From NCBI RefSeq assembly GCF_037126175.1, contig NZ_CP146986.1, forward strand, positions 4,960,501 to 5,024,500: a stretch of 64,000 bases of DNA, in the 5' to 3' direction. The translations under genes and the position numbers were made by a program. Each line of letters opens with the position of its first letter. The stretch's first letter is position 1. The notes below the pieces were generated by a model. The model did no database searches. It saw only the letters and a program-made list of their open reading frames with translations, and had not been told where the DNA came from. Positions 25,531 to 38,414 of the stretch are shown here, one piece after another. The stretch is from Pseudomonas sp. RSB 5.4 (GTDB lineage Bacteria; Pseudomonadota; Gammaproteobacteria; Pseudomonadales; Pseudomonadaceae).

Positions 25531-25556
25531 GGTTCAGCACCCCATCGTGTGTTATT

Positions 25557-25566
25557 TGTATATACA
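25557..25566. promoter_or_regulatory. Probable HutC operator between hutF and hutC
   Basis: TGTATATACA is a perfect palindrome and resembles the core of the HutC box found upstream of hutU in this window (TGTATGTACA). It lies 27 bp before the hutF start and 72 bp before hutC, so it could serve both. Confidence 0.65.
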
Positions 25567-25637
25567 TATACAGACGTTTGCCTGCCCGGTAAACTCCGGC
25601 AAGCTAGCAACTTTCAGCCAATAAACAGGGATCAACC

Positions 25638-26387
25638 GTGCCGACTCCGCCTCCAGTCTCTCCGTTGGCCGCGAACCTGGGCGACAGTCCGGCGCCCTTG
25701 TACGCCCGCGTCAAACAGATGATCACCCAGCAGATCGACAGCGGTAACTGGCCACCGCACTACCGCGTGCCATCGGAAAGCGAACTGGTCAGCCAGCTCG
25801 GTTTCAGCCGCATGACCATCAACCGCGCCCTGCGCGAGATGACCGCCGACGGTCTGCTGGTGCGCATGCAAGGTGTCGGTACGTTTGTCGCCGAACCGAA
25901 GAGCCAGTCCGCGCTGTTCGAAGTGCACAACATCGCCGACGAAATCGCCTCCCGTGGCCATCGCCACACCTGCCAGGTGATCACCCTCGAAGAAGAGGCC
26001 GCCGGTTCCGAGCGCGCGCTGGCACTGGACATGCGCGAAGGGCAGAAGGTCTTCCACTCGCTGATCGTGCATTACGAAAACGATATTCCGGTGCAAATCG
26101 AAGACCGTTTCGTCAACGCACTGGTCGCCCCGGACTACCTCAAGCAGGACTTCACCCTGCAGACCCCTTACGCCTATCTCAATCAGGTCGCGCCGTTGAC
26201 CGAAGGCGAGCACGTGGTTGAAGCGATCCTCGCCGAGCCGTCCGAGTGCAAGTTGCTGCAGATCGAAAAAGGCGAGCCGTGCCTGCTGATCCGTCGCCGC
26301 ACCTGGTCAGGGCGGCAGCCGGTGACGGCGGCGCGCCTGATCCACCCAGGTTCCCGTCATCGTCTGGAAGGACGCTTTCATAAATGA
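25638..26387 (+). CDS. hutC: Histidine utilisation repressor HutC
   Basis: A GntR-family repressor of the HutC subfamily, 249 residues, released from DNA by urocanate. The N-terminal winged helix-turn-helix reads YRVPSESELVSQLGFSRMTINRALREMTADGLLVRMQGVGTFVAEP. The C-terminal UTRA domain binds the inducer (about 95-235, with VHYENDIPVQIEDRFVNA). The GTG start is supported by AGGGA 6 bases upstream. The stop overlaps the hutD start (ATGA). Targets are the palindromes between hutF and hutC and before hutU. Confidence 0.96.
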   Translation: MPTPPPVSPLAANLGDSPAPLYARVKQMITQQIDSGNWPPHYRVPSESELVSQLGFSRMTINRALREMTADGLLVRMQGVGTFVAEPKSQSALFEVHNIADEIASRGHRHTCQVITLEEEAAGSERALALDMREGQKVFHSLIVHYENDIPVQIEDRFVNALVAPDYLKQDFTLQTPYAYLNQVAPLTEGEHVVEAILAEPSECKLLQIEKGEPCLLIRRRTWSGRQPVTAARLIHPGSRHRLEGRFHK

Positions 26388-27303: not shown

Positions 27304-27317
27304 CTTGTATGTACAAG
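27304..27317. promoter_or_regulatory. HutC operator at the hutU promoter
   Basis: CTTGTATGTACAAG is a near-perfect 14-bp palindrome identical in form to the described Pseudomonas hut operator. It covers the predicted transcription start of the sigma54 promoter, so bound HutC would block initiation directly. Confidence 0.88.
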
Positions 27318-27436: not shown

Positions 27437-29134
27437 GTGACTGACAATAAGCCTACAACTGCCGTTTATACAAAGAGACGTGACGTCGAGATCCGCGCTG
27501 CCCGCGGCAACAAGCTGACCGCCAAGAGCTGGCTGACCGAAGCGCCGCTGCGCATGCTGATGAACAACCTCGATCCGGAAGTGGCCGAGAACCCGAAAGA
27601 GCTGGTGGTTTACGGTGGTATCGGTCGCGCTGCGCGCAACTGGGAGTGCTACGACAAGATCGTCGAGAGCCTGACCAATCTCAATGACGACGAAACCCTG
27701 CTGGTGCAGTCGGGCAAACCGGTCGGCGTGTTCAAGACTCACAGCAACGCACCGCGCGTACTGATCGCCAACTCCAACCTGGTGCCGCACTGGGCGAGCT
27801 GGGAACACTTCAACGAACTCGACGCCAAAGGCCTGGCCATGTACGGCCAGATGACCGCCGGCAGCTGGATCTACATCGGCAGCCAGGGCATCGTTCAGGG
27901 CACCTACGAAACCTTCGTCGAAGCCGGGCGCCAGCACTACAACGACAACCTCAAGGGCAAGTGGGTGCTGACCGCGGGTCTCGGCGGCATGGGCGGTGCC
28001 CAGCCACTGGCCGCCACCCTGGCCGGTGCCTGTTCGCTGAACATTGAGTGCCAACAGGTGAGCATCGATTTCCGCCTGAAAAGCCGCTATGTCGATGAGC
28101 AGGCCAAAGACCTCGACGACGCCCTGGCGCGCATCGCCAAATACACCGCTGAAGGCAAAGCGATTTCCATCGCGCTGCTGGGCAACGCGGCAGAAATCCT
28201 GCCGGAACTGGTCAAGCGTGGCGTGCGCCCGGACATGGTCACCGACCAGACCAGCGCCCACGACCCACTGAACGGCTACCTGCCGGCGGGCTGGACCTGG
28301 GAAGAGTACCGCGCTCGTGCCAAGACCGAGCCGGCCGCCGTGATCAAAGCCGCCAAGCAATCGATGGCGGTCCACGTCAAAGCCATGCTGGACTTCCAGA
28401 AGCAAGGCATTCCGACCTTCGACTACGGCAACAACATCCGTCAGATGGCGCAGGAAGAAGGCGTGGAAAACGCGTTCGACTTCCCGGGCTTCGTCCCGGC
28501 CTACATCCGTCCGCTGTTCTGCCGTGGCATCGGCCCGTTCCGTTGGGCGGCGCTGTCGGGTGATCCGCAGGACATCTTCAAGACCGACGCCAAAGTCAAA
28601 GAGCTGATCCCGGACGACGCGCACCTGCACAACTGGCTGGACATGGCCCGCGAGCGCATCAGCTTCCAGGGTCTGCCGGCACGTATCTGCTGGGTCGGTC
28701 TGGGCCTGCGCGCCAAGCTCGGTCTGGCGTTCAACGAAATGGTGCGCAGCGGCGAGCTGTCGGCGCCGATCGTCATCGGTCGCGACCACCTCGACTCCGG
28801 CTCGGTAGCCAGCCCGAACCGCGAAACCGAATCGATGCAGGACGGTTCCGACGCGGTCTCCGACTGGCCGCTGCTTAACGCTCTGCTCAACACCGCGAGC
28901 GGCGCGACCTGGGTGTCCCTGCACCACGGTGGCGGTGTCGGCATGGGCTTCTCCCAGCACTCGGGCATGGTGATCGTCTGCGACGGTACCGACGAAGCGG
29001 CCGAGCGCATTGCTCGCGTCCTGCACAACGACCCGGCCACCGGTGTCATGCGTCACGCCGATGCCGGTTACCAGATCGCCATCGACTGCGCCAAGGAGCA
29101 GGGGCTGAACCTGCCGATGATTACCGGTAAATAA
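27437..29134 (+). CDS. hutU: Urocanate hydratase
   Basis: It converts urocanate to imidazolone propionate using NAD as an electrophile. The 565-residue length and the sequence ([20 protein letters not shown], the NAD-binding [15 protein letters not shown], and the active-site segment with Cys in [21 protein letters not shown]) are classic HutU. The GTG start has GAGGAG 8 bases upstream. First gene of the long operon that runs to hutG, driven by the sigma54/HutC promoter. Confidence 0.98.
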
Positions 29135-29308: not shown

Positions 29309-30781
29309 ATGGCTGTAACCCCTGATCGTGCAAGCAACAAACCGTTGATCGAAAGGCGTTCGATCGACTACATCCCGGAAGCGGAAAGACACGGTCGTCT
29401 GTTTAGCCAGTTCACCCTGTGGATGGGTGCGAATCTGCAAATCACTGCGATTGTCACCGGGGCCCTGGCCGTGGTGCTGGGCGGTGATGTGTTCTGGTCG
29501 TTGATCGGTCTGTTGATCGGTCAACTGCTGGGCGGCGGCGTGATGGCGCTGCATGCGGCGCAAGGGCCGAAGCTGGGCCTGCCGCAGATGATTTCCAGCC
29601 GCGTGCAATTTGGCGTGTACGGTGCGGCGATTCCGATCGTGCTGGTGTGCCTGATGTACCTGGGTTTCACCGCCACCGGTACGGTGCTTTCCGGTCAGGC
29701 GCTGGGCCAGTTGTTTGGCGTCAGCGACACCGTCGGCATTCTGCTGTTCGCCAGTGTCATCGTGCTGGTCACGGTGCTCGGTTATCGGGTGATCCACTGG
29801 ATCGGCCGGGTCGCCAGTGTGATTGGCGTGATTGCCTTTGTGTATCTGTTCAGCCGCCTGCTGAGCCAGGTGGACGTTGGCGCACTCCTGCAAATTCGCC
29901 ACTTCAGCTGGAGCAGCTTCCTGCTGGCAGTGTCGCTCGCGGCCTCCTGGCAGATCGCTTTCGGCCCTTATGTGGCGGACTACTCGCGTTACCTGCCGAG
30001 CAAGATTTCCTCGGTGAAAACCTTCTTTGCCGCTGGCGCAGGTTCGGTCATCGGCGCGCAGGTGGCGATGGTCCTCGGCGTGTTCGCGGCAGCTTCGGCC
30101 AACGGCCAGTTCGCCGGTCACGAAGTGGCCTACATCGTCGGGCTGGGCGGCACCGGGGCCACCGCCGCGCTGCTGTACTTCAGCATCGCGTTCGGCAAGG
30201 TGACCATCTCGACGCTGAACTCCTATGGCAGCTTCATGTGCATCGCGACCATCATCAGCGGCTTCCGTGGCCACCTGACGGTCTCGCGTCTGCAGCGTCT
30301 GGTGTTCGTGCTGGTGATCGTCAGTGCGGCCACCCTGATCGCCTTGCTCGGTCAGCACTCGTTCCTCGGTGCGTTCAAGTCGTTCATCCTGTTCCTGCTG
30401 GCGTTCTTCACGCCATGGAGCGCGATCAACCTGGTCGACTACTACTGCATCACCCGCGAGCGCTATGACGTGCCGGCGCTGGCCGATCCGAACGGTCGCT
30501 ACGGGCGCTGGAACCTGCTCGGGATCAGCGTCTATGTGTTCGGCGTGCTGGTGCAACTACCGTTCATCTCCACCAAGTTCTACACCGGCCCGCTGGTGGC
30601 TGCCCTCGGTGACGTGGATATCTCCTGGATCATCGGTCTGGTGCTGCCTGCTGCTCTCTATTACGTGTGCGCAAAAAAATGGCACGGCTCGGTGCCCGAT
30701 CACCTGATTCTGCCGGTCGAGCAGAACAGCGATGTACAACCTGAAACAAGTGGGGCCAGTCGCGCTGCGGCGCAGGCCTGA
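29309..30781 (+). CDS. NCS1-family permease, probable urocanate transporter
   Basis: A 490-residue inner-membrane protein with about twelve membrane helices from residue 35 to 455. The phrase FTLWMGANLQITAIVTGALAVVLGG and WQIAFGPYVADYSRYLP mark the NCS1 nucleobase-cation symporter family (CodB-like). The place between hutU and hutXWV, inside the operon, argues against cytosine as substrate. In P. fluorescens a urocanate-specific permease called HutTu is reported in this locus, and this gene is the natural candidate; I infer that by position. The C-terminal 30 residues are polar and cytosolic. Confidence 0.75.
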   Translation: MAVTPDRASNKPLIERRSIDYIPEAERHGRLFSQFTLWMGANLQITAIVTGALAVVLGGDVFWSLIGLLIGQLLGGGVMALHAAQGPKLGLPQMISSRVQFGVYGAAIPIVLVCLMYLGFTATGTVLSGQALGQLFGVSDTVGILLFASVIVLVTVLGYRVIHWIGRVASVIGVIAFVYLFSRLLSQVDVGALLQIRHFSWSSFLLAVSLAASWQIAFGPYVADYSRYLPSKISSVKTFFAAGAGSVIGAQVAMVLGVFAAASANGQFAGHEVAYIVGLGGTGATAALLYFSIAFGKVTISTLNSYGSFMCIATIISGFRGHLTVSRLQRLVFVLVIVSAATLIALLGQHSFLGAFKSFILFLLAFFTPWSAINLVDYYCITRERYDVPALADPNGRYGRWNLLGISVYVFGVLVQLPFISTKFYTGPLVAALGDVDISWIIGLVLPAALYYVCAKKWHGSVPDHLILPVEQNSDVQPETSGASRAAAQA

Positions 30782-30851
30782 CTGGACGTGGACAGGGCTG
30801 GATGCCTCTTGAACTGCCGTAAGCCAATTCATGATTAGGAGCGTCGCGACA

Positions 30852-31820
30852 ATGAAATCGAACAAGACCCTGCTGACCACATTGCTGTCCATGGGCCTGT
30901 TGGCCAGTGCCGGTGCGACTCAGGCAACTGGCTGGTGCGAATCGGGCAAACCGGTGAAGTTTGCCGGCCTGAACTGGGAAAGCGGCATGCTGCTGACCGA
31001 CGTCCTGCAAGTGGTTCTGGAGAAAGGCTACGACTGCAAGACCGATAGCTTGCCGGGCAACTCGATCACCATGGAGAACGCCCTGAGCAGCAACGACATT
31101 CAAGTGTTCGCCGAAGAGTGGGTCGGCCGCAGCGAGGTCTGGAACAAAGCCGAGAAGGCCGGCAAGGTTGTCGGTGTCGGCGCGCCGATCGTTGGTGCGG
31201 TCGAAGGCTGGTACGTGCCGCGCTACGTGATCGAAGGCGACGCCAAGCGCAAGCTTGAGCCGAAAGCGCCGGACCTGAAAAACATCGCCGATCTGGGCAA
31301 ATACGCAGCCATTTTCAAAGACGCCGAAGAGCCGTCCAAGGGCCGTTTCTACAACTGCCCGGCCGGCTGGACCTGCGAGCTGGACAACAGCGAAATGCTC
31401 AAGAGCTACGGCCTGGAAAACAGCTACACCAACTTCCGTCCGGGCACCGGCCCGGCGCTGGATGCGGCGGTGCTGTCGAGCTACAAGCGTGGCGAGCCGA
31501 TCCTGTTCTACTACTGGTCGCCAACCCCGCTGATGGGCCAGATCGACGCGGTCAAGCTGGAAGAAAAACCGGGCGTCGACAAGAGCGTGAGCATCAAGGT
31601 CGGCCTGTCGAAAACCTTCCACGAGCAGGCGCCGGAACTGGTGGCCGTGCTGGAAAAGGTCAATCTGCCGATCGACCTGCTGAACCAGAACCTGGGCCGC
31701 ATGGCGAAGGAACGTATCGAGTCGCCGAAGCTGGCGAAAATCTTCCTCAAGGAACATCCTGAAGTCTGGCATGCGTGGGTCAGTGACGACGCAGCCAAAA
31801 AAATCGACGCGGCGCTGTAG
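30852..31820 (+). CDS. hutX: Periplasmic histidine-binding protein of the HutXWV ABC transporter
   Basis: The start at MKSNKTLLTTLLSMGLLASAGATQATG is preferred: it gives a signal peptide with cleavage near ATG-W and has AGGAG 10 bases upstream. The 322-residue product is of the OpuAC/ProX type (KFAGLNWESGMLLTDVLQVVLEKGYDCKTDSLPG), like the Sinorhizobium and Pseudomonas HutX proteins. A conserved Trp-rich pocket (EEWVGRSEVW, EGWYVPRY, FYYWSPTPLMG) suits an aromatic or cationic ligand. The hut context makes histidine the likely ligand. Confidence 0.85.
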   Translation: MKSNKTLLTTLLSMGLLASAGATQATGWCESGKPVKFAGLNWESGMLLTDVLQVVLEKGYDCKTDSLPGNSITMENALSSNDIQVFAEEWVGRSEVWNKAEKAGKVVGVGAPIVGAVEGWYVPRYVIEGDAKRKLEPKAPDLKNIADLGKYAAIFKDAEEPSKGRFYNCPAGWTCELDNSEMLKSYGLENSYTNFRPGTGPALDAAVLSSYKRGEPILFYYWSPTPLMGQIDAVKLEEKPGVDKSVSIKVGLSKTFHEQAPELVAVLEKVNLPIDLLNQNLGRMAKERIESPKLAKIFLKEHPEVWHAWVSDDAAKKIDAAL

Positions 31821-31904: not shown

Positions 31905-32756
31905 ATGTTTCCCGAAAGCTTTACCTTTTCCATCGCCGACTGGGTCAACGGTTGGGTCGATGCGCTGGTCACCAACTACGGTGATGTATTCCGCCACATC
32001 TCGGACACGCTGCTGTGGGCCATCGTCAACCTCGAAGGCCTGCTGCGTGCGGCGCCGTGGTGGTTGATGCTGGCGATCGTCGGCGTCGTCGCCTGGCACG
32101 CCACGCGCAAAGTCGTCACCACTGCGGTCATCGTCGGTCTGTTGTTCCTGGTGGGAGCTGTCGGCCTGTGGGACAAACTCATGCAGACCCTGGCGCTGAT
32201 GATGGTCGCGACGATCATTTCGGTGCTGATCGGCATTCCGCTGGGGATCCTTTCGGCGCGCAGCAATCGCCTGCGTTCGGTGCTGATGCCGCTGCTCGAC
32301 ATCATGCAGACCATGCCCAGCTTCGTGTACCTGATTCCGGTGCTGATGCTGTTCGGTCTGGGCAAGGTTCCGGCGATTTTCGCCACGGTGATCTACGCCG
32401 CGCCGCCGCTGATCCGTCTGACCGATCTGGGCATCCGCCAGGTCGACGGCGAAGTGATGGAAGCGATCAACGCTTTCGGTGCCAACCGCTGGCAGCAACT
32501 GTTCGGCGTGCAACTGCCGCTGGCCCTGCCGAGCATCATGGCCGGGATCAACCAGACCACCATGATGGCCCTGTCGATGGTGGTGATCGCCTCGATGATC
32601 GGCGCCCGTGGTTTGGGTGAAGACGTGCTGGTGGGGATTCAGACCCTCAACGTCGGACGCGGCCTCGAAGCCGGTCTGGCGATCGTGATTCTCGCAGTGG
32701 TCATCGACCGCATTACTCAAGCGTACGGTCGGCCACGGCATGAGGTGAGCAAATGA
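31905..32756 (+). CDS. hutW: ABC transporter permease HutW
   Basis: A 283-residue membrane subunit of the ProW/OpuAB class with a hydrophilic N-terminus, about six helices, and the EAA loop EAINAFGANRWQQLFGVQLP that docks the ATPase. It follows hutX after 84 bp and overlaps hutV by 4 bases. The role is histidine uptake together with HutX and HutV. Confidence 0.88.
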   Translation: MFPESFTFSIADWVNGWVDALVTNYGDVFRHISDTLLWAIVNLEGLLRAAPWWLMLAIVGVVAWHATRKVVTTAVIVGLLFLVGAVGLWDKLMQTLALMMVATIISVLIGIPLGILSARSNRLRSVLMPLLDIMQTMPSFVYLIPVLMLFGLGKVPAIFATVIYAAPPLIRLTDLGIRQVDGEVMEAINAFGANRWQQLFGVQLPLALPSIMAGINQTTMMALSMVVIASMIGARGLGEDVLVGIQTLNVGRGLEAGLAIVILAVVIDRITQAYGRPRHEVSK

Positions 32757-33583
32757 GCAACGCAACCGTGAGCAAGATCGAAGTCAAAAACGTCTTCAAG
32801 ATTTTCGGCAACCGCGCCAAGGACGCACTGGCGATGGTCGGCCAGGGCAAGACCAAGGATCAGGTGCTGAACGAAACCGGTTGCGTGGTCGGGGTCAACG
32901 ACCTGTCGCTGAGCATCGGCACCGGTGAGATCTTCGTGATCATGGGCCTGTCCGGCTCGGGCAAATCCACCTTGGTGCGCCACTTCAACCGCCTGATCGA
33001 CCCCACCAGCGGCGCGATCCTGGTCGATGGCGTGGACATCCTGCAATACGACATGGAAGCGCTGCGCGAATTTCGCCGGCACAAGATCAGCATGGTGTTC
33101 CAGAGCTTCGGCCTGCTGCCGCACAAGACCGTGATCGAGAACGTCGCCTACGGTCTGAAAGTGCGCGGCGAAAGCAAACAGCTGTGCAACGAGCGCGCCT
33201 TGCACTGGATCAACACCGTGGGCCTCAAAGGCTACGAAAACAAATACCCGCACCAGCTCTCCGGCGGCATGCGTCAGCGTGTCGGCCTGGCCCGCGCCTT
33301 GGCGGCGGACACCGACATCATCCTGATGGACGAAGCCTTCAGTGCGCTGGACCCGCTGATCCGCGCCGAGATGCAGGACCAGTTGCTCGAGCTGCAAAAG
33401 ACCCTGCACAAGACCATCGTCTTCATCACCCACGACCTCGACGAGGCCGTGCGCATCGGCAACCGCATCGCGATCCTCAAGGACGGCCGCCTGATTCAAG
33501 TCGGCACCCCGAGAGAGATCCTGCATTCGCCGGCGGATGAGTATGTCGACCGGTTCGTGCAGCGGCGGGCGGCGGTGGTTTGA
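32753..33583 (+). CDS. hutV: ABC transporter ATP-binding protein HutV
   Basis: A 276-residue ATPase of the ProV/OpuAA class. Walker A (GLSGSGKST) is at about 63-71, the signature LSGGMRQRVGLARAL and Walker B ILMDEAFSALDP follow. Unlike ProV it has no C-terminal CBS domains, being about 120 residues shorter, which suits HutV. Near the N-terminus is the class-typical insert ALAMVGQGKTKDQVLNETG. Its ATGA start overlaps hutW. Confidence 0.88.
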   Translation: MSNATVSKIEVKNVFKIFGNRAKDALAMVGQGKTKDQVLNETGCVVGVNDLSLSIGTGEIFVIMGLSGSGKSTLVRHFNRLIDPTSGAILVDGVDILQYDMEALREFRRHKISMVFQSFGLLPHKTVIENVAYGLKVRGESKQLCNERALHWINTVGLKGYENKYPHQLSGGMRQRVGLARALAADTDIILMDEAFSALDPLIRAEMQDQLLELQKTLHKTIVFITHDLDEAVRIGNRIAILKDGRLIQVGTPREILHSPADEYVDRFVQRRAAVV

Positions 33584-33752: not shown

Positions 33753-33789
33753 AGGTTTTTGTATCAACAGAATTGGCATGAGGTTTCAG

Positions 33790-35313
33790 ATGTCCCAGGC
33801 TGAAAAAATCATCATCACCGGTAACCCCCTGCGTTGGCAGGACGTGGTCGCCGTTGCCCGTCACGGCGCAAAACTTGAGCTGTCGAGCGAGACCTGGGCG
33901 CGCATCGAAAACGCTCAGGGCATCGTCCAGCGCATCGTCGAAAGCGGCGAACGCGCTTACGGCGTCAACACCGGTCTGGGCGGTTTGTCCAACGTCTCGC
34001 TGAAGGATGAACAGCTCAGCCAGCTGTCGCGCAATACCTTGCTCAGCCACGCCTGTGGTGTCGGCCCGGTACTGCCTGATGAACAAACTCGCGCGATCCT
34101 CTGCGCGGCGATCCACAACTACAGCCACGGCAAATCCGGCATTCATCGCCGTGTGGTCGAAGCACTGCTGGCACTGCTCAATCGCGGCATCACCCCGCAA
34201 GTGCCGGCGCAAGGCTCGGTGGGTTACCTGACGCACATGGCGCACATCGGCATCGCCCTGCTGGGCGTGGGCAATGTCAGCTATCGCGGACAGATCACCT
34301 CGGCGCAACAGGCGCTGGCCGAAGAAGGCCTGCAACCGGTGCAGCTCGGTGCGAAGGACGGTTTGTGCCTGGTCAACGGCACCCCGTGCATGACCGGCCT
34401 TAGTTGCCTGGCGATCGCCGATGCGACGCGGCTGGTGCAGTGGGCCGATGTGATCGGCGCCATGAGCTTCGAAGCGCAGCGCGGGCAGATTGCCGCGTTC
34501 GATGCCGAGATCATCGCGCTCAAACCGCACCCGGGCATGCAGCAGGTCGGGATCAACCTGCGGGCCTTGCTCGACGGCAGTGAAGTGATCGCGGCCAGCC
34601 AAGGCATTCGTACTCAGGATGCGCTGAGCATTCGTTCGATCCCGCAGGTGCACGGTGCGGCGCGCGACCAACTGGAGCACGCGATCAAACAGGTCGAGGC
34701 CGAGCTCAACGGTTGCACCGATAACCCGTTGCTGCTGGGCACGCCGGAGAATTTCCGGGTGATGTCGCAGGCCAACCCGCACGGTCAGTCAGTGGCGATG
34801 GCGGCGGATCTGCTGGCGATTGCCATGGCTGAAATCGGCTCGATTGCCGAGCGCCGCCTCGATCGTCTGGTCAACCCGCACGTCAGTGGTCTGCCGGCGT
34901 TTCTGGTGGCCAACCCGGGGGTGAACTCCGGGATGATGATCGTGCAATACGTCGCCGCTTCGCTGTGTGCCGAGAACCGCCAACTGGCGCAACCGGCAGT
35001 GCTCGACAACTATGTCACCTCGGGCCTGCAGGAAGACCATCTGAGCATGGGCACCAGCGCTGCGCTGAAGCTGCACCGCGCCTTGGAAAACTGCACGCAG
35101 ATCCTCGCCATCGAGTACCTGCTGGCGGCGCAGGCCTTTGAATTCCTCAAGGAGCAGCGCTTTGGCGCGGGCACTGACCAGGCCTGGCGCCTGCTGCGTG
35201 AAACAGTCCCGGCCTACGATCAGGATCGCTGGCTGGCGCCGGATATCGCCGCCGCCGCGAACGTTTTGAAAGACCCGAATTCGCTGCACAAAGTATTACC
35301 GAATCTGCACTGA
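33790..35313 (+). CDS. HutH1: histidine ammonia-lyase homologue lacking the MIO triad
   Basis: A HAL/PAL-family protein of 507 residues; this start has GAGG 6 bases upstream, while an ATG 12 bases earlier has no ribosome site. The fold is intact (ERAYGVNTGLGGLSN, LSHACGVG, LVNGTPCMTG, LQEDHLSMGTSAALKLH). Where active lyases have [15 protein letters not shown], this has GSVG-YLTHMAHI: the Ala-Ser-Gly that cyclises to MIO is missing. The catalytic Tyr of QDPYSLR is replaced (QDALSIR), and the Phe of GGNFHAEP is Pro. It cannot be a normal lyase. Genetic work in P. fluorescens SBW25 found hutH2, not hutH1, needed for histidine growth, as I recall. Function unknown. Confidence 0.85.
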   Translation: MSQAEKIIITGNPLRWQDVVAVARHGAKLELSSETWARIENAQGIVQRIVESGERAYGVNTGLGGLSNVSLKDEQLSQLSRNTLLSHACGVGPVLPDEQTRAILCAAIHNYSHGKSGIHRRVVEALLALLNRGITPQVPAQGSVGYLTHMAHIGIALLGVGNVSYRGQITSAQQALAEEGLQPVQLGAKDGLCLVNGTPCMTGLSCLAIADATRLVQWADVIGAMSFEAQRGQIAAFDAEIIALKPHPGMQQVGINLRALLDGSEVIAASQGIRTQDALSIRSIPQVHGAARDQLEHAIKQVEAELNGCTDNPLLLGTPENFRVMSQANPHGQSVAMAADLLAIAMAEIGSIAERRLDRLVNPHVSGLPAFLVANPGVNSGMMIVQYVAASLCAENRQLAQPAVLDNYVTSGLQEDHLSMGTSAALKLHRALENCTQILAIEYLLAAQAFEFLKEQRFGAGTDQAWRLLRETVPAYDQDRWLAPDIAAAANVLKDPNSLHKVLPNLH

Positions 35314-35430: not shown

Positions 35431-36963
35431 ATGACTGCGCTGAACCTGATTCCCGGCCAACTGAGCCTGACCCAACTGCGTGACGTCTATCAGCACCCGG
35501 TCAAACTGACCCTCGACCACAGCGCCTCCGCGCAGATCGAGGCCAGCGTGGCCTGCGTCGAGCAGATCCTCGCCGAGAACCGCACCGCCTACGGCATCAA
35601 CACCGGTTTCGGCCTGCTGGCGTCGACCCGCATCGCCAGCGAAGACCTGGAAAACCTGCAGCGTTCGCTGGTGTTGTCTCACGCTGCCGGTGTCGGCCAG
35701 CCGATCAGCGATGAGTTGGTGCGCTTGATCATGGTGCTCAAGGTCAACAGCCTCAGCCGTGGTTTCTCCGGCATCCGCCGCGTGGTGATCGACGCGCTGA
35801 TCGCGCTGATCAACGCCGAGGTTTATCCGCACATTCCGCTCAAGGGATCGGTCGGTGCATCGGGTGACCTCGCGCCGCTGGCGCACATGTCGCTGGTGCT
35901 GCTGGGCGAGGGCAAGGCGCGTTACAAAGGCGAGTGGATGGAAGCCACCGAAGCGCTGAAAGTCGCTGGTCTGACCCCGCTGACGCTGGCGGCGAAAGAA
36001 GGTCTGGCACTGCTCAACGGCACTCAAGTGTCTAGCGCATTTGCCCTGCGCGGTCTGTTTGAAGGTGAAGACCTGTTTGCCGGTGCGCTGGCAATCGGCG
36101 GTCTGACGGTTGAAGCGGTGCTCGGTTCGCGCTCGCCGTTTGACGCGCGCATCCACGCGGCCCGTGGGCAGAAAGGTCAGATCGACGCCGCCATGGCTTA
36201 CCGCGATCTGCTCGGTGAGCGCAGCGAAGTCTCTGATTCGCACCAGAACTGCGAGAAGGTCCAGGACCCGTACTCGCTGCGTTGCCAGCCGCAAGTCATG
36301 GGCGCCTGCCTGACCCAGTTCCGTCAGGCCGCTGAAGTGCTGGTGGTCGAAGCCAACGCCGTCTCTGACAACCCGTTGGTATTCGCGGCTGAAGGCGACG
36401 TGATTTCCGGTGGTAACTTCCACGCCGAACCGGTGGCCATGGCCGCCGACAACATGGCCCTGGCCATCGCCGAAATCGGCTCGCTGAGCGAACGCCGCAT
36501 CTCGCTGATGATGGACAAGCACATGTCGCAGCTGCCGCCGTTCCTGGTGGCCAATGGCGGCGTCAACTCCGGTTTCATGATCGCCCAGGTGACCGCCGCG
36601 GCACTGGCCAGCGAGAACAAGGCACTGTCCCATCCGCATTCGGTCGACAGCCTGCCGACCTCGGCCAACCAGGAAGACCACGTGTCGATGGCTCCGGCCG
36701 CCGGCAAGCGCCTGTGGGAAATGGCCGAGAACACTCGCGGCATTCTCGCGGTGGAATGGCTGGCGGCGGTGCAGGGGCTGGATTTGCGTAACGGTCTGAA
36801 GACCTCGGCCAAGCTGGAGCAGGCGCGGGCGACTCTGCGCAAGGAAGTGCCGTTCTATGAGAAGGACCGCTTCTTTGCGCCGGACATCAATGCGGCGACT
36901 GAGCTGCTGGCTTCGCGCTGCTTGAGCGAATTGGTTCCGGCGAAATTGCTGCCTAGTTTGTAA
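35431..36963 (+). CDS. hutH: Histidine ammonia-lyase HutH2
   Basis: It removes ammonia from histidine to give urocanate, the first step of the pathway. The 510-residue enzyme has the MIO-forming Ala143-Ser144-Gly145 in [15 protein letters not shown]; Ser144 equals Ser143 of the P. putida enzyme. Tyr281 ([15 protein letters not shown]) equals catalytic Tyr280. Other pocket residues ([44 protein letters not shown]) are intact. AAAAGGAG lies just upstream of the start. It lies 117 bp after hutH1, without room for a permease gene between them. Confidence 0.97.
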
Positions 36964-37208: not shown

Positions 37209-38414
37209 GTGAAAACCCTCTGGCAACACTGCCACGTCGCAACCATGGCGCAGGGCGTCTACTCGATCATCGAGGACGCAGCCATTGTGACGTCCGGTGC
37301 GCACATCGAGTGGATCGGTCCGCGCAATCTGCTGCCGTCCGGCGAATACCCGGCGGTCAACGATCTGCAAGGCGCGTGGGTGACCCCGGGGCTGATCGAC
37401 TGCCACACCCACACGGTGTTCGGCGGCAACCGCAGCGGCGAATTCGAGAAGCGCCTGCAAGGCGTCAGCTACGCCGAGATCGCGGCGCAGGGCGGCGGCA
37501 TCGCCAGCACCGTGCGCGCTACTCGTGAAGCGAGCGAAGACGAGCTGTTCGCCAGCGCCGCCAAACGCCTGAAAAGCCTGATGCGCGACGGCGTGACCAC
37601 GGTCGAGATGAAGTCCGGCTACGGTCTGGATCTGGCCAACGAGCGCAAGATCCTGCGGGTCATCCGTCGCCTGGAAAAAGAGCTGCCGATCAGCGTGCGC
37701 AGCACCTGTCTGGCCGCCCACGCGCTGCCGCCGGAGTACAAGGATCGCGCCGACGACTACATCGACCTGATCTGCAGCGAAATGCTTCCCGCACTGGCTG
37801 CCGAAGGGCTGGTCGATGCTGTGGACGCGTTCTGTGAATACCTGGCGTTCTCGCCGGAGCAGGTCGAGCGGGTGTTCATCACCGCACAGAAGCTCGGCCT
37901 ACCGGTGAAGTTGCACGCCGAGCAATTGTCATCCCTGCACGGCTCCAGTCTGGCCGCCCGCTATAAGGCGTTGTCCGCCGATCACCTGGAGTTCATGGAC
38001 GAAGACGACGCCATCGCCATGGCCAAAGCCGACACCGTCGCCGTGCTGTTGCCGGGAGCGTTCTACTTCCTGCGCGAAACCCAGCTGCCACCGATGGACG
38101 CCCTGCGCAAGCACAAGGTGAAAATCGCCATCGCCAGCGACCTCAACCCGGGTACCTCGCCCGCGCTGTCGCTGCGCCTGATGCTGAACATGGCCTGCAC
38201 CTGTTTCCGCATGACCCCGGAAGAAGCCCTGGCCGGCGCGACCATTCATGCCGCGCAGGCGCTGGGCATGGCTGACACCCACGGTTCGCTGGAAGTCGGC
38301 AAGGTCGCGGATTTCGTCGCCTGGCACATCGATCGTCCGGCGGACCTGGCCTATTGGCTCGGGGGTGATCTGGACAAACGCGTCGTGCGTCACGGCGTCG
38401 AATCAAGTCTGTAG
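37209..38414 (+). CDS. hutI: Imidazolonepropionase
   Basis: It hydrolyses imidazolone-5-propionate to N-formimino-glutamate, which goes to HutF. The 401-residue amidohydrolase shows the metal site as [17 protein letters not shown] (about 58-74), [38 protein letters not shown] and [10 protein letters not shown] near 310. GGAGGCC lies just before the start. Next to hutG with an 10-base gap. Confidence 0.97.

Follow-up and report, generated by a model that had tools for sequence, protein, structure and literature searches.

A histidase-fold protein without its cofactor site in a Pseudomonas hut cluster: a likely hercynine trimethylamine-lyase

The hut cluster of Pseudomonas sp. RSB 5.4 lies in the 64,000-nucleotide stretch analyzed here (the window; contig NZ_CP146986.1, positions 4,960,501 to 5,024,500) and contains, besides the canonical histidase gene hutH2, a second gene of the histidine ammonia-lyase (HAL) family, hutH1 (33790..35313, forward strand). 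HutH1 is a HAL-fold lyase of 507 amino acids that lacks the residues forming the 4-methylideneimidazole-5-one (MIO) cofactor. Judged from its sequence and genomic context, it is likely a hercynine (N-alpha-trimethylhistidine, histidine betaine) trimethylamine-lyase, which would convert hercynine into urocanate and trimethylamine. It also seems probable, if a shade less so, that HutH1 belongs to a widespread hercynine-eating pathway, in which import by HutXWV, a BCCT carrier or an amino-acid ABC system would be followed by cleavage to urocanate and trimethylamine, often under the control of HutC. With the same degree of confidence, we regard the hercynine of fungi, actinobacteria and cyanobacteria as the food source of this pathway. 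HutH1 is not filed as a histidase because MIO is missing, nor as an ergothionase because it departs from that enzyme in residues, in place on the tree and in partner gene, although the two enzymes would work alike.

In the proposed route, HutXWV would take up hercynine, bound by its charge and ring via tryptophans of HutX. HutH1 would grip the ring and the carboxylate in the manner of a histidase, a conserved Tyr/Glu pair would abstract the beta-proton, and trimethylamine would depart unaided by MIO. As a good leaving group, trimethylamine may make the cofactor dispensable here, proton abstraction by the Tyr/Glu pair then being enough. Urocanate would then pass to HutU and release HutC, and the ordinary histidine reaction would stay with HutH2.

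HutH1 has lost the MIO site of histidase

The hutH1 frame comprises 507 open codons from the ATG at 33790, with an alternative in-frame ATG four codons upstream, at 33778. Its product scores 557 bits with PF00221 (aromatic amino acid lyase superfamily), and HAL and ergothionase are among the fold neighbours of its AlphaFold2 model (mean predicted local distance difference test score, pLDDT, 89; predicted template modelling score, pTM, 0.90). Model match and fold thus both fit. A sequence-only reading of this gene had claimed an intact frame, the loss of the MIO residues, the replacement of the catalytic Tyr and a pocket Phe, and a retained Glu, all of which is borne out. Pairwise alignment of HutH1 with HutH2 (40% identity, 477 columns) contains a gap of exactly three residues between GSVG and YLTHMAHI, and the ASG tripeptide that forms MIO is not present in HutH1. 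The segment aligned with the MIO site of HAL, GSVGYLTHMAHI (34213..34248, forward strand, as are all features of HutH1 below), has Tyr146 there instead. QDALSIR (34615..34635; QDPYSLR in HutH2) places Leu279 at the HAL Tyr280 position, as in ergothionase, and retains Gln276 and Arg282. SQANPHGQ (34765..34788; GGNFHAEP in HutH2) has Pro330 at the HAL Phe329 position. QEDHLSM (35029..35049) contributes Glu415, which corresponds to HAL Glu414 and ergothionase Glu411. Cys89 of LSHACGVG, pointed out earlier as a further difference, is nearly invariant in an 18-row alignment but is replaced by Val in the Burkholderia protein.

The substrate side of the pocket is retained

Active-site residues were compared, in the numbering of Pseudomonas putida HAL, among 104 HutH1 rows, 70 MIO-type proteins and four ergothionase rows, the last consisting of the Treponema denticola ergothionase (6s7j/6s7q) and three proteobacterial candidates (L019–L021). 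The candidates were chosen by neighbourhood, a thiourocanate hydratase gene lying within about 6 kb; in a fourth genome passing the thiourocanate hydratase cut-off (G289, L022) no such lyase was found. Tyr53, His83, Asn195, Gln277, Arg283 and Glu414, which we take to act on the imidazole and carboxylate sides of the HAL pocket, are retained in 104/104 HutH1 proteins. Ergothionase rows, also devoid of MIO, retain Tyr53, His83, Gln277, Arg283 and Glu414, and have Ser at position 195. At the Tyr280 position, Leu is found in every HutH1 protein and in all four ergothionase rows. The Phe329 position is occupied in HutH1 by Pro, or by Ala or Cys in 11/104. Position 386 differs between the classes: Tyr in 104/104 HutH1 (Tyr387 in the window protein, 34948..34950), Val in 69/70 MIO-type proteins and Lys in 4/4 ergothionase rows. 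Titles of PDB entries list the HAL mutants Y280F, F329A and D145A, so that such residues have been studied before.

This comparison suggests that HutH1 keeps the ring and carboxylate side of the pocket and has its amine side altered as in a known trimethylamine-lyase. Ergothionase frees trimethylamine from ergothioneine without MIO, as stated in PMC13405746. Since the active MIO-less enzyme of T. denticola and the three candidates share the Leu, loss of Tyr280 is no sign of a dead enzyme.

Importer genes precede hutH1

The idea of a betaine substrate was set down before the neighbours were tallied. An importer gene stands immediately 5' of hutH1, on the same strand, in all 80 named loci listed, with −16 to 187 bases between the matched ends. 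These loci are the best 80 among the matches listed, in order of similarity to a Halomonas-type protein, and are heavy in Gammaproteobacteria. The importer gene is hutV, of the betaine-type ABC system hutXWV, in 62 of them, a BCCT betaine carrier in 13 and an amino-acid ABC ATPase gene in five. In the phylum sample, the window included, an importer gene precedes hutH1 in 18/19 loci (HutV in 11, amino-acid ABC in five, BCCT in two). No importer gene was found before canonical hutH in any of 38 control loci (1.5 kb flanks). There, the upstream gene is hutU in 14 cases, hutI in eight, hutH1 in three and another hut-type gene, on either strand, in six; in the remaining seven, none of the genes searched for lies within 400 bases. 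The HutH1 tree requires at least three switches of importer type, so the association of hutH1 appears to be with import in general; two types out of the three belong to the betaine class.

In the window, hutV (32753..33583, forward strand; TIGR01186 above cut-off) encodes the ATPase of a betaine/proline/choline ABC family and directly precedes hutH1. It follows hutW (31905..32756, forward strand), whose product is a permease of the choline/betaine ABC type (292 bits with TIGR03416, short of the cut-off), and hutX (30831..31820, forward strand), which encodes a substrate-binding protein of the OpuAC type (glycine-betaine class; PF04069 and PDB alignments). HutX-like matches keep Trp49, Trp97, Trp127 and Trp229 in 78/78 cases, and in alignments these match tryptophans of 7yle and 4xz6, two binding proteins of the betaine class whose ligands we take to be dimethylsulfoniopropionate and trimethylamine N-oxide. 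In betaine-class binding proteins, such tryptophans typically cage a quaternary amine. Within Pseudomonas, 36 of 37 genomes that carry the HutH1 motif (a subset of the 82 described below) have a HutX orthologue, against 1/37 of those without it (Fisher p 1.6e-18, genomes being treated as unrelated); the two exceptions are G420 and G439, taken up below.

A module of importer and lyase also occurs without hutU, hutI or hutH2 in view: as hutXWV-hutH1 in nine loci of Pseudomonas, among them P. putida, P. monteilii and P. soli, and in several loci elsewhere. Among the genes scanned beside these stand-alone modules, none for trimethylamine use was found.

HutH1 is a conserved family under selection

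Among the matches listed, the 120 closest proteins share 84–97% identity with HutH1, are 487–507 residues long and read GSVGYLTH without exception. The 80 named loci all read GSVGYL[TSA]H; they were found by two peptide patterns outside the motif, one of which, [GFY][VIL]TS[GA]LQED, is itself HutH1-like. The strict DNA pattern for GS[VA]GYLTH matches at least 82 of 119 Pseudomonas genomes, a lower bound, since it skips the GYLSH and GYLAH members (8/80 named loci), and one in which the 82 matches were not inspected individually. Across the phylum it matches 19 of 398 sampled genomes, after removal of one false match in an unrelated protein (G243, L079). A reversed control pattern matches 0/398 and 1/119, respectively. 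The 104 HutH1 rows compared above come from the window, five plasmid loci (hand-picked among 60 listed of 896), 18 loci of the phylum sample and the 80 named loci. Some of them are nearly identical, and one at least is counted twice: by length, L080 and L100 are the same Salinicola contig. Classes in these rows were assigned by motif, so that their lack of ASG is partly by construction; the independent tests of the missing tripeptide are the 80 named loci and the 120 closest listed proteins.

The ratio of nonsynonymous to synonymous substitution rates (dN/dS) of hutH1 has a median of 0.123 over 70 pairs with the window gene (pairs with identity ≥75% and dS of 0.1–1.5). For its neighbours the medians are 0.063 for HutH2 (51 pairs), 0.116 for HutI (58) and 0.043 for HutU (61). 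HutH1 is under weaker constraint than HutH2 (median paired ratio 1.9, 51 pairs). Selection against amino-acid change in HutH1 is strong. The checks proposed by the sequence-only reading, conservation of the YLTH stretch and purifying selection, thus both came out positive. Decay of the gene is ruled out by the conservation of motif and residues together with this ratio, and so is a sequencing error, the missing ASG being shared by all 120 closest listed proteins and all 80 listed loci.

In a tree of 38 rows, all 24 HutH1 rows form one group (Shimodaira–Hasegawa-like approximate likelihood ratio test, SH-aLRT, 99), apart from the ergothionases. The root of this tree is unsure and long branches meet in it; either one or two losses of MIO in HutH1 and ergothionase would fit.

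Predicted HutC operators point to urocanate

HutC binds when urocanate is absent, according to PMC8871633. With up to two mismatches, the palindrome TTGTATATACAA occurs twice in the window (0.17 expected; 3/100 shuffles reach two): as TTGTATATACAT between hutF and hutC (25556..25567) and as TTGTATGTACAA 5' of hutU (27305..27316). Both fit a predicted HutC operator. Of 27 hutH1 loci scanned, 9 carry it with up to one mismatch, at a distance of 48 to 203 bases in front of the leading importer gene; these include modules of Erwinia, Burkholderia and Halomonas in which neither hutU nor hutI is in view. An import-and-cleave module controlled by HutC suggests that urocanate is the product.

No match to EgtD was found in the genome of RSB 5.4, in a search of which the power is not shown, as the cut-off was passed in 0 of 14 control genomes; hercynine would therefore be supplied by other organisms. 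Histidine betaine is released by a soil cyanobacterium, and unidentified microbes deplete it in biocrust, as reported in PMC4595634. A survey of the open-licence literature, subscription papers not covered, found no paper on hercynine breakdown as judged by title or the start of the abstract.

Alternative functions

Several observations weigh against a hercynine lyase. HutH1 scores just above the cut-off of the histidase model TIGR01225 (544.9 bits against 539.15; HutH2, 728 bits), and this pass, together with the histidase-like Asn195, is evidence against it. HutH1 is also closer to HAL than to ergothionase by both sequence and fold scores, and its active-site loops are weakly modelled, residues 407–419 falling below a pLDDT of 50. 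As to the importer, one of the 19 sampled loci (L072) has none that was recognised, the ABC importers are of the amino-acid rather than the betaine type in 5/80, 5/19 and 4/5 loci of the three sets, one genome carries HutC-HutXWV without HutH1 (G439, L225), and in another HutH1 is accompanied by HutW and HutV and HutX was not found (G420, L226). HutXWV itself has a reported part in histidine uptake (PMC8871633). The palindrome was not found before the importer in 18 of the 27 loci, namely nine stand-alone Pseudomonas modules and nine others. Finally, the soil isolates tested in PMC4595634 left histidine betaine unused.

An MIO-less lyase acting on another quaternary or activated histidine derivative, such as ring-methylated hercynine, or on several, is unlikely. 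The pocket and the importers indicate a histidine-like betaine and leave the ring substituents unfixed; the hut linkage, the HutC-type palindromes and the plain HutU nearby favour urocanate itself as the product.

Rather less likely, HutH1 could be a pseudoenzyme: a regulator, a ligand sensor or a subunit assembling with HutH2. Histidase chemistry would not survive the loss of MIO and Tyr280, and hutH1 and hutH2 adjoin in many Pseudomonas. Against this stand the invariant substrate-side residues, the linkage to importers, the occurrence of stand-alone modules where hutH2 is not in view, and the precedent of an active MIO-less enzyme. From the roles offered by the sequence-only reading, we accordingly keep a different chemistry and do not favour binding, regulation or hetero-oligomer formation; that reading had drawn no connection to the upstream hutXWV genes or to ergothionase.

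That HutH1 is an ergothionase, producing thiourocanate and trimethylamine from ergothioneine, is very unlikely. The fold, the loss of MIO and the Leu in place of Tyr280 are shared, but Ser195 and the Lys at position 386 of ergothionase are Asn and Tyr in all HutH1 proteins, and the two occupy separate tree groups. Moreover, HutH1 has about 25% identity to the candidates found near thiourocanate hydratase, the single HutU-family match of the RSB 5.4 genome scores 689 bits against a thiourocanate hydratase cut-off of 930, and both lyase types coexist in three genomes.

A weak or conditional histidase, for which the score just above the model cut-off and a Salinicola genome without a close canonical HutH (G308) might speak, is highly improbable, since changing Ser143 to Ala lowers the activity of P. 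putida HAL more than a thousandfold (PMC3903478), hutH1 of strain SBW25 is dispensable on histidine (PMC8871633) and G308 carries another ASG protein (L200).

Relation to known systems

The hercynine lyase proposed here and its importer come closest to four described systems. With HAL (P. putida 1b8f; HutH2), HutH1 shares fold, length, 37–40% identity, the imidazole and carboxylate residues and a place in the hut operon; unlike HAL, it has lost the MIO tripeptide, Tyr280 and Phe329 and is linked to importers. Ergothionase shares the HAL fold and the pocket features given above but is 28–29% identical to HutH1 in structural alignments (6s7j), and its candidates lie near thiourocanate hydratase, unlike HutH1. 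HutXWV is similar to quaternary amine importers of the ProXWV type, HutX being a PF04069 protein with four conserved tryptophans, and differs from them in being tied to an MIO-less lyase in 62/80 named loci listed. EgtU is likewise a quaternary-amine-type ABC importer of a histidine betaine, with cation-pi contacts; it differs from HutXWV, by description alone, in occurring in Firmicutes and in being specific for ergothioneine, hercynine being bound weakly (PMC9732360).

One of the two hutH copies of SBW25 was reportedly termed nonfunctional. By gene order, PA5093 may occupy the hutH1 position and PA5091 that of hutG. PA5093 is labelled 'hutG' in PMC12772324, and its mutant grows poorly on histidine and urocanate.

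If HutH1 is a hercynine lyase, an enzyme now claimed by histidase models in Pseudomonas and other Proteobacteria would gain a name, many annotated 'histidases' would be misnamed and hutXWV would gain a dedicated substrate. There would be a route for the use of soil histidine betaine, and the HAL fold would account for one more source of trimethylamine. Proteobacteria, including the Pseudomonas genomes counted by motif, would join ergothioneine-precursor chemistry to the hut pathway. A rule is also suggested, that trimethylamine as leaving group makes MIO and Tyr280 dispensable; their joint loss would therefore mark betaine lyases in the HAL family.

The surrounding hut cluster and further lyases

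The cluster of the window consists of hutC, hutD, hutU, a cytosine-family permease gene, hutX, hutW, hutV, hutH1, hutH2 and hutI, and the features that follow are on the forward strand. The repressor gene hutC (25638..26387) scores above the TIGR02018 cut-off. Urocanate hydratase, which would accept the predicted product, is encoded by hutU (27437..29134; 1022 bits with TIGR01228, and under the cut-off of the model for thiourocanate hydratase). The cytosine/purine-family permease gene (29309..30781; PF02133) lies at the position of hutTu, a name taken from PMC8871633. Downstream of hutH1 are hutH2 (35431..36963), the canonical MIO-containing histidase by TIGR01225 and motif, and hutI (37209..38414; TIGR01224 above cut-off).

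A third HAL-family gene of the same genome lies outside the window (G000:C1:5068442-5069809, reverse strand; L008); its ASG is intact and its product is 35% identical to HutH1. Close to the HutH1 module of P. laurentiana, a HalD-like (PF23169) protein is encoded (L168:3728-4516, forward strand). In the Salinicola genome G308, a hut operon includes BCCT and HutH1; the genome has no match of ≥50% to canonical HutH, and its ASG protein is distant and encoded elsewhere. A further MIO-less group of the PF00221 type, outside the 104, 70 and 3 rows compared, reads GS[IL]GA[AG]DL and shows QDPLS at the position of Tyr280 (L080:4810-6345, reverse strand; L196; L198). Its Salinicola member adjoins a HutWV-like ABC importer and a hut operon, and the group is possibly another betaine lyase.
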